NCBI GenBank assembly: GCA_944387385.1
Contig: CALXES010000008.1
Location: 1 to 64,000, forward strand
Reading direction: 5' to 3'
Source of the DNA: an uncultured Clostridia bacterium
GTDB taxonomy: Bacteria; Bacillota; Clostridia; TANB77; CAG-465
DNA length: 64,000 nucleotides
Within the stretch, counting starts at the first letter, position 1; every line of letters starts with the position of its first letter. A program made the position numbers and the translations under genes. This document shows, one piece after another, positions 1 to 2,449 of this stretch. The notes under the pieces were generated by a model that saw only the letters and a list, made by a program, of their open reading frames with translations, did not search any database and was not told the origin of the DNA.

Positions 1-1089
1 GAACTTACTAAGTATATGAGTGACAATTTGAATGGTATATATTTAAAAATTGCGATGACAAAAATAGGAGACAATGTTGCATATTCTCTTACTTATGGAT
101 ATGATTTAATACCTTCTGGAGAAATGGCAACATCAGAATACTTTACTTCTGGTAGCATGACAACAATACTTTTAAATGGATATCCTAACAAGTCATATCA
201 GGAGATGGGACTAAAAAGTGATGAGGAGGCATATTTTGCTACCCAATTAGCTGTATATGAATTTGTATCTAGGATGCAATACGAAGATATCGCTAATGGA
301 GAGTTTTCTATTGATAGTGTAATAGCAAGTGAGGAACAATATGAAGATATGGTTGAACGTGTAAAGATAAAAGCAAAAGAGCTGTTAAATTATGCACTTG
401 AAAATCCATTTGAAGAAGCTTTAGAAGCAAAATTAAATACACCTAAAAGTGAAATTGATCCAAAAGATGATAGTGTCATATATGGACCATATTATGCTAA
501 AACTGATACGGATGAAATCACAAAAAGTTTTATGGGCGATAAATTTAATCCAACAGTTAATGTAAAAGCAGAGGGCTTTATAGATGGTACATCGATTGTA
601 ATTACAGATAAAGATGGTAATGAACTAAAAGAAATAAAAAATGGAGAGGAGTTCTATATAAAAGTAAATGGTACGGAAAAAATATTTTCTAAACTTGAGA
701 TATCAGCTAAAACTAATCTTTTGCGTGCAAGAATATACAAAACTAATGAAAACAGAAAGAAATATGTTACTTTAGAATCAGTTGATATTGATTATGCTGA
801 TGTCGTTACAATAATACATAATCTTGAATCTAGCTCTTTTGATATTAATTTTATTGATTATAATGGAAATAATATAGAGGGAGTAAAATATTATGTTTAT
901 GATGAAAACGATAAATTAATTCAGGATTTTGATCGTGACTATGTATTTGATTTACCAGTTGGAAAATATTATATAAAGATATATGAAATTCCAGATGGAT
1001 ATTTTATCAATGGAGATAAATTTGATTTTGAAATTGTTAAAGATCAACAAAACGTATTAAATATTCAAGTAGATTCATTGATAAATTAA
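1..1089 (+). CDS. Thioester/Cna-B-type surface protein, C-terminal part (5' end outside window)
   Basis: The frame is open from base 1, so this is the last 362 codons of a longer gene; the ATG at 16 is internal. Around residue 80 the sequence ATQLAVYEF matches the TQxA signature of thioester domains, whose Gln pairs with a Cys that would lie upstream of the window. Such domains bind host or environmental surfaces covalently. The last ~85 residues look like a Cna-B/SpaA prealbumin-like fold (DINFIDYNG, then LPVGKYYIKIYEIPDGY). The protein ends without an LPxTG motif or C-terminal membrane helix, and a strong terminator follows immediately, so the stop looks natural rather than the result of truncation. 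How it is held at the surface is unclear. Domain calls are from motif recognition only. Confidence 0.7.
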   Translation, partial: ELTKYMSDNLNGIYLKIAMTKIGDNVAYSLTYGYDLIPSGEMATSEYFTSGSMTTILLNGYPNKSYQEMGLKSDEEAYFATQLAVYEFVSRMQYEDIANGEFSIDSVIASEEQYEDMVERVKIKAKELLNYALENPFEEALEAKLNTPKSEIDPKDDSVIYGPYYAKTDTDEITKSFMGDKFNPTVNVKAEGFIDGTSIVITDKDGNELKEIKNGEEFYIKVNGTEKIFSKLEISAKTNLLRARIYKTNENRKKYVTLESVDIDYADVVTIIHNLESSSFDINFIDYNGNNIEGVKYYVYDENDKLIQDFDRDYVFDLPVGKYYIKIYEIPDGYFINGDKFDFEIVKDQQNVLNIQVDSLIN

Positions 1090-1092
1090 ATT

Positions 1093-1130
1093 AAAGATAA
1101 GCATTAATGAAAATTAATGCTTATCTTTTT
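1093..1130 (+). terminator. Intrinsic terminator of the surface-protein gene
   Basis: A perfect 16-bp stem (1093-1108 with 1113-1128), GAAA tetraloop and a T run, 4 bp after the stop codon. Confidence 0.9.
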
Positions 1131-2204
1131 GCTTATAAGTACCTAAATATCAACAAAAAATAGATTTTTTGATATGATTTTAGAAATATATATTACAAAA
1201 ATTATAAAAAAATGTAATAATCTTTGTTTACAGATGGTTATAAGATACTTGAAATTACATAATGTTAAAAGTAAAATGTTGATTGCTAAAAAATTATATG
1301 TTAGAATTCAGTTAACAAATAAATAAAGATAAAGTTGATAATTGTGAGACTAATAAATAGAGGATATGATTATTATAGAATTGATAGATAATTTATAAAA
1401 TAAAAATACAGATCAAGATATTATAAATTATGATTGGTTATAAAAAAATATATAGTTCCCCCAATGCTATTAGTAATACATTATAACTCCACATCAGTAT
1501 GAAATGGATTGGAAGGTGTGGGAAAAAATTTAAGGAATAGTATTTTGATAAGTATAATAAAAAATAAATTGTTCTAAAAAAATATATAATTTGTACTAGA
1601 AAAAATTAAAAAGGAAAATATTGAACGGAAAATTAAAAAATATATACCTAAAATACAAATTTTATATTTTAAAATATTATGACTATTAATGTTTCGTATA
1701 TGGAAAAGAGGTTGATATTAGTAGGTAGATAAAATTATAAAATTTAAAATTGAGAGAAAATTATTATGGTAAAAATAGAAGTGAATTCTATGGTTTGAGA
1801 GCTCAAAAGAATTTAAAGTTTGTAATTTTTAATGATCTACACGGTACATTTTTTAATGTAAAAGTATACTACACAATATACAGTAGTATATAGTTGATTT
1901 TATTATAAGTATTATATATTAAAGTATGTAATCATATAGAAAAAACTATTATAAAGAAATTAAATTTAATTTCTTAAGTAGTTATTCTACATAAAGTATG
2001 AGAATGTATTACTATTTTGGCATTATGGATATTGCTCAGTAAATCTTTATGTAAAATTATATTTAAGAAACTTCTTAATATCTTTATTATAAAAATTTAT
2101 AATTTGCAATTTAAACTTATATAGTAGATAGTAATATTAATGTTATACTTGAAGAATATATATTTAAATATATGATATATAGCCATAAAGAGAGGTAAGA
2201 GACT
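1131..2204. other. 1.1-kb gene-free AT-rich gap
   Basis: No frame here holds a convincing gene on either strand: stops are frequent and ribosome-binding sites are absent. I see no tRNA or rRNA. It contains a perfect 22-bp palindrome at 1954-1975, made only of A/T-rich sequence. It may be decayed coding DNA, since it lies between two surface-protein-related genes, but no family could be recognised in the broken frames. Confidence 0.6.
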
Positions 2205-2393
2205 ATGGAAACTAACATTACATTGCCTAATACAGGTGGCTTCATTAGTACAGATTTTTTAATAATATTAGGAGTTGCAGTAGCATTCTTAGTATTATAT
2301 GTGATTTTTTGTCTACTTAGAGAAAATAGAAATAATGACTTAAAAGAATTTGCAGATGATGACTTTGTAGATAATAAACAAGAAAAACAATAG
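2205..2393 (+). CDS. Stand-alone LPxTG-helix mini-protein (62 aa)
   Basis: METNITLPNTGG at the very N-terminus is followed by a hydrophobic helix (about residues 16-38: FLIILGVAVAFLVLYVIFCLL), then Arg and a 24-residue acidic tail. This is the layout of a sortase sorting signal (LPxTG, helix, positive residue) with no protein in front of it. An in-frame TAA sits 6 bp before the ATG and an AGAGAGG ribosome-binding site precedes it, so it is not simply the 3' end of a longer frame. It has no signal peptide; the positive-inside rule predicts N-out, C-in, placing LPNTGG outside. The tail is longer and more acidic than in usual sorting signals. It could be a relic of a decayed surface protein or a free-standing sortase substrate. 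A class B-like sortase lies at 16.6 kb. Confidence 0.7.
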   Translation: METNITLPNTGGFISTDFLIILGVAVAFLVLYVIFCLLRENRNNDLKEFADDDFVDNKQEKQ

Positions 2394-2421: not shown

Positions 2422-2449
2422 GACTAGGATTTTTTCCTAGTCTTTTTTT
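2422..2449 (+). terminator. Intrinsic terminator after the mini-LPxTG gene
   Basis: GACTAGGA (2422-2429) pairs with TCCTAGTC (2435-2442), followed by seven T. Confidence 0.9.

Follow-up and report, generated by a model that had tools for sequence, protein, structure and literature searches.

The window analysed here is a stretch of 64,000 nucleotides from an uncultured Clostridia bacterium. Near its start lie part of a gene for a TED/SpaA-domain protein, a structured RNA of about 845 nt, a gene of 62 codons that we call the mini gene, and a 28-nt element that spans the stop codon of the latter (Table 1). The product of the mini gene, METNITLPNTGGFISTDFLIILGVAVAFLVLYVIFCLLRENRNNDLKEFADDDFVDNKQEKQ, consists of METNIT, the motif LPNTGG, the linker FISTD, one hydrophobic helix, an Arg and an acidic tail. 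It has neither a signal peptide nor a mature passenger, and only six residues precede the motif. The initial annotation of this DNA described a separate gene encoding a sorting signal without a passenger, and the conservation of motif, helix and tail by synonymous-biased substitution bears this out. The upstream in-frame stop (TAA at 2196-2198, 6 bp ahead of the ATG), the ribosome-binding site and the terminator are also all as it had them. Terminators are scarce in shuffled sequence, where 0.1 are expected compared to the 3 strand-wise hits found.

Table 1 Features at the mini-gene locus, in positions of the window
Feature	Position	Strand	Evidence and remarks
C-terminal part of TED/SpaA-domain paralogue, N-terminal membrane helix, no LPXTG	1..1089	+	
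Terminator of the neighbour, parting its transcript from RNA and mini gene	1093..1128	+	Hairpin in most relatives
Conserved inverted repeat ATTACA..TGTAAT upstream of RNA promoter, possible operator	1192..1218	+	Alignment
Promoter-like TTGATT-17-TG.TAGAAT 5' of RNA	1279..1307	+	Columns conserved 14/14; consensus match, of a kind not rare in shuffles
Large structured RNA, ~845 nt	1310..2156	+	Compensatory changes; no Rfam match
5' core of RNA (model R1)	1415..1549	+	23 pairs, covariation
3' domain of RNA, closing just before mini-gene leader	1905..2156	+	51 pairs
Possible second promoter TTGAAG-16-TATGAT, directly 5' of mini gene	2149..2176	+	Conserved in most relatives; weak consensus match; overlaps closing helix of RNA
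Ribosome-binding site AGAGAGG	2189..2195	+	Sequence; kept in relatives
Mini gene, free-standing sorting signal, 62 aa	2205..2393	+	ORF; 14 orthologues; dN/dS 0.19
LPNTGG sortase motif codons	2223..2240	+	LP[NEVY]TGG or MP[IV]TGG in relatives
Membrane helix, codons 18-38	2256..2318	+	LPXTG-anchor profile similarity below curated cut-offs
Cytoplasmic tail: juxtamembrane Arg, then acidic ...F..DDFVD...	2319..2390	+	14/14, and adhesins of G024 and G002
28-nt element AACAATAGAATGTTTTAAAATGTTTTAT spanning stop codon	2386..2413	+	19-nt core fixed in 14/14
Intrinsic terminator of mini gene	2422..2442	+	Terminator prediction

Orthologues of the mini gene were sought in 57 related genomes and then in all 28 of the genus. 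They occur in 14 of the 28 species, as ORFs of 59-75 aa at one syntenic site flanked by the TED/SpaA gene and the Sua5-adk-map-ribosomal-protein region; G004, G026 and G016 either lack the adjoining Sua5 or carry a replacement for it. When 85,000 species genomes were scanned, the same 13 other carriers were returned together with one ordinary anchor, with all matches coming from uncultured gut Clostridia, and neither the 28 congeners nor these 85,000 genomes held a mini gene outside the 14-species clade. In a tree of neighbouring housekeeping proteins that took in four non-carrying congeners, the carriers form one group apart from those four, and the gene is present in every member of this group. 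The mini proteins are 53-98% identical among the 14 species, pS exceeds pN in 88 of 88 informative pairs and the median dN/dS is 0.19. A spurious ORF is ruled out by the dN/dS and the synteny. All genomes compared are metagenome assemblies, and the agreement of 14 independent ones rules out an assembly artefact. The mini gene is thus an intact gene under purifying selection that has been inherited by every sampled member of the clade, a maintained working part rather than a broken scrap. A mobile or viral origin was also rejected: phages, plasmids and viral contigs gave no match except one chance pattern hit, which the RNA model does not support.

Residues P8, T10, G11 and G12 are invariant in the 14 orthologues, with N, I, E, V or Y at the variable position between P and T. 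The LPxTGG sequence therefore behaves as a sortase motif, in which P, T, G and G never change while x varies freely. The first position of the motif is Leu, but Met in four species, in which cleavage may therefore be poor. The N-terminal peptide is the least conserved part of the protein, with a mean pairwise identity of 0.49 compared to 0.81 for the motif and juxtamembrane stretch, and the number of residues preceding the motif is six in 13 species and five in one. All 14 orthologues have the helix followed by a positive charge on its C-terminal side and an acidic tail, and this tail is net acidic throughout, with a Phe and a D-F at fixed places. From this pattern, selection seems to act mainly on the motif, the helix and the tail, and on the N-terminal peptide through its length only.

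The spacing of the motif, the STD, the helix and the Arg matches that of the full-length anchors of the genus. As in the C-terminal LPXTG signals described by PF00746 and TIGR01167, an LPxTGG motif is followed at this spacing by a single helix and an Arg on the cytoplasmic side. The mini protein differs from those signals in being free-standing, without signal peptide or passenger, in its long conserved acidic tail, and in scores that fall just below the cut-offs (17.3 compared to 20 for PF00746 and 15.5 compared to 15.9 for TIGR01167). The small LPXTG proteins of WxL/Csc systems (NF053819, the EF2685/EF0750 family) are likewise short sortase substrates at a surface-protein locus; however, their model is about 105 aa long, and with a score of 14 the 62-residue mini protein stays below the cut-off of 47.

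All 14 carriers share a conserved ORF-free stretch of about 1.1 kb upstream of the mini gene. The absence of a conserved frame rules out coding content, and no known RNA, tRNA or tmRNA was found in it, the Rfam covariance models giving no match. Its conserved blocks include AUAGUUCCCCCAA, CUCCACAU…GUGUGGGAAAA, GAACGGA, AGAGGUUGAUA and GAGAGCUC. The 5' core contains an AUAG-UUCCCCCAA..-CUAU hairpin and a CCACAU/GUGUGG helix, and 10 of its 23 pairs show changes on both sides, a number reached by 0 of 500 shuffles; in slid controls pairing drops to 25-54%. In the 3' domain 20 of 51 pairs have changed on both sides, again with 0 of 500 shuffles reaching this. Many of the changes are AU to GU on the plus strand, which gives the orientation of the RNA. 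All 20 shuffles of the G000 sequence fold less well than the RNA sequence itself (z -2.2). Among 238 genomes of the order, the R1 core model matches all 14 carriers of the mini gene and no others; with stricter filters, among 391 genomes drawn from the class, it matches the window genome only. The gap is therefore a conserved structured RNA, previously undescribed and of no known family. The full fold of this AT-rich RNA of about 845 nt is only partly supported; the middle domain folds, and the covariation support is confined to the 5' core and the 3' domain. Terminator prediction finds no terminator between the RNA and the mini gene. Like OLE, GOLLD, ROOL and RNAIII, of which the last also encodes a small peptide, this RNA is long, folded and conserved; unlike them, it has no Rfam match and is confined to one clade of one genus. 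Large structured RNAs with strong covariation and without a known family are rare in bacteria. Neither this RNA nor the 3' element appeared in the initial annotation.

The 3' element holds a direct repeat, AATGTTTTA, with a 10-nt period. Its 19-nt core has 0 mismatches in the 14 mini-gene genomes and is found at this position in none of the 14 other congeners, and G000 contains a single exact copy of the element. In G012, G003 and G004 the stop codon falls earlier and the element stays in place, which implies that the constraint is on the nucleic acid and not on the protein. This fixed position with a moving stop also rules out stop-codon read-through. Base pairing between the 28-nt element and the RNA was considered and rejected, as no consistent site exists across genomes. 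The RNA and the 3' element co-occur with the mini gene in all 14 genomes and nowhere else among those searched.

Outside the 14-species clade, the gene directly upstream of Sua5 in G024 and G002 encodes a thioester/SpaA adhesin, of 2,364 and 2,193 aa respectively. The anchor and tail of these adhesins (…LRDKK…FKFKSDDFVDDE…) match the mini-gene profile across almost the full length of the profile, with E-values of 7.5e-21 and 2.2e-18, compared to about 1e-8 for ordinary anchors. They share with the mini gene the anchor, the DDFVD tail and the genomic site; they differ in that the signal is fused to a protein of 2,200-2,360 aa and that neither the structured RNA nor the 3' element is present. 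The equivalent site in G021, G023 and G017 holds ordinary LPXTG adhesins. That the mini gene derives from an ancestral thioester adhesin gene, whose 3' end, comprising sorting signal and cytoplasmic tail, was made independent, is well supported by this comparison, since in sister species the corresponding end still forms part of a giant adhesin encoded at this site. The simplest history would have the adhesin 3' end turning into a separate gene in the common ancestor of the 14 species. The initial annotation had taken homologues with the same sequence at the end of a long surface protein as the mark of a fragment. Such homologues do exist, in G024 and G002, and they bear on the origin; as 14 species keep the ORF independent, they do not make the mini gene a dead fragment. 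In the giant adhesins themselves (2,364 aa, L104:11209-18303; 2,193 aa, L106:5895-12476) the anchor is followed by the long acidic DDFVD tail, which is unusual for sortase substrates.

The neighbouring gene is cut by the contig end, so that the window holds three quarters of it, and its start lies on another contig (C2, L050:1-381). Complete copies are about 460-480 aa long and comprise an N-terminal membrane helix (uncleaved, about residues 50-70), a TED domain (PF08341, E 2e-9 and 3.6e-9) and a SpaA domain, and none of them contains an LPXTG motif. The thioester Cys is replaced by Ser or Ala in all eight aligned paralogues and the Gln is retained. The initial annotation had presented the neighbour as a thioester protein lacking any anchor; the membrane helix was hidden from it by the contig cut, and the loss of the Cys argues against a working thioester. 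The neighbour is rather a degenerate thioester paralogue in which the Cys has been lost, the Gln persists and a membrane helix has been acquired at the N-terminus. Its distribution matches that of the mini gene, with copies in the same 14 genomes. In G014 and G020 the reading frame of the neighbour is interrupted, at a different place in each, with the mini gene intact in both; the mini gene thus seems to be independent of the neighbour, to the extent that these breaks, possibly assembly errors, are real. Joining of the neighbour to the mini ORF by an intron or by ribosomal bypass was rejected, since a conserved terminator belongs to the neighbour alone and the search for intron families gave no match.

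We tentatively favour, at a little below an even chance, the reading that the mini protein is a membrane micro-protein with its N-terminus outside, a dedicated sortase-linked sensor or modulator that acts through its helix and acidic tail. In the mechanism that we infer, the 62-residue product would insert without a signal peptide, with the N-terminus out and the acidic tail in, like Pf3 coat, and would show LPxTGG to sortase at the position used by full-length precursors. Short N-tails of this kind are inserted by YidC-type routes in Pf3 coat and MifM, as described in PMC8920935. Those proteins also combine a short N-tail outside, one helix and a C-terminus inside with the lack of a signal peptide, the arrangement predicted for the mini protein, although they lack its LPXTG motif. 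Sortase cleavage is possible, since the genome contains six sortase genes (two of class C, two of class B, one nearest D/E and one unclassified). The mini protein, once cut, may signal as a C-peptide, either inside the membrane or towards the cytoplasm, and when uncut it may occupy sortase; the working part would be the helix and tail, and not the released ten-residue peptide. The sensor or modulator reading follows from the expected nature of the cleaved product, a C-peptide and nothing else, with a conserved tail, and from Streptococcus gordonii, where an intramembrane histidine kinase detects sortase C-peptides (Hall et al. 2019, cited in PMC11502775 and PMC11326707). In both cases a membrane remnant of a sorting signal would serve as a signalling molecule. 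The S. gordonii C-peptide is an adhesin by-product, whereas the mini protein would come from a dedicated gene, and no receptor, histidine kinase or otherwise, is linked to the mini-gene site. Expression of the mini gene is probably governed by the upstream RNA and the 3' element. A wider proposal is that all these parts form one cassette, a sortase-monitoring unit in which an adhesin signal has turned into a micro-protein that reports on or tunes sortase under the control of the 845-nt RNA and the 3' element; this we regard as possible but doubtful. Sorting signals are usually thought of as disposable C-terminal tags, and here one is a gene of its own that has been selected across a clade. A protein of 62 residues thereby offers a direct way to test whether sortase C-peptides convey information.

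Against the sensor or modulator reading stand the generic LPXTG profile scores below the cut-offs, the Met at the start of the motif in four species and the lack of a receptor linked to the site. The leading part could also be played by the RNA, with the peptide in a secondary role. The locus would then encode either a long dual-function RNA like RNAIII, in which the small membrane protein encoded by the 3' part is incidental, or a stalling nascent chain. MifM, the model for the latter, is a regulatory nascent chain with an acidic C-terminal stretch that monitors membrane insertion. The large covarying RNA directly upstream without an intervening terminator, the element fixed across the stop codon and the predicted N-out helix with an acidic tail, as in MifM, all make this the strongest rival. 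PMC8920935 adds that acidic residues in the N-tail of MifM matter for its insertion. Stalling, however, leaves the free x beside the fixed P, T, G and G unexplained, the tail is already present in the giant adhesins, the downstream gene is inconstant (Sua5 being missing or replaced in three carriers), and a promoter-like sequence may separate the RNA from the mini gene. On balance we consider it unlikely. Somewhat less likely again is a role as decoy or competitive inhibitor, which sortase would bind but cut poorly. The retention of the motif with a minimal passenger and the change from Leu to Met in four species would fit such a role, but the invariance of all four of P, T, G and G is what cleavage would require rather than binding alone, and a decoy would have no need of the conserved acidic tail.

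Release of the N-terminal peptide as a signal, by sortase or another protease, is improbable. The initial annotation had proposed a nine-residue peptide, whereas a cut between T and G would free ten residues (METNITLPNT). The fixed length of this peptide and the expected N-out topology agree with such a precursor; its sequence, however, is the least conserved part of the protein, which weakens the proposal, and sortase would pass it to lipid II instead of releasing it. The suggestion that the mini protein is an anchor added to the neighbouring TED/SpaA protein, the two forming a split surface protein in trans, is less probable still. The two genes do look like the N- and C-terminal pieces of one adhesin and share the same 14 genomes, but the neighbour has a membrane helix of its own, no known chemistry would join the two proteins, and in G014 and G020 the mini gene is intact beside a broken neighbour, assembly error being a possible cause of the breaks. 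A non-functional 3' remnant of an adhesin gene would account for the homology to an adhesin C-terminus at the same site; with a dN/dS of 0.19, a conserved start, ribosome-binding site, promoter-like sequence and terminator, and no loss in 14 species, this reading is largely refuted and is the least probable of all.

The adk and Sua5 genes near the mini-gene site vary among the carriers (L040:4488-5165 in G009, L046:13588-16608 in G026 and L049:12579-15576 in G016). In G009 a distant homologue with 39% identity stands in place of adk. In G026 and G016 adk is duplicated, and a short YrdC-like protein takes the place of Sua5.
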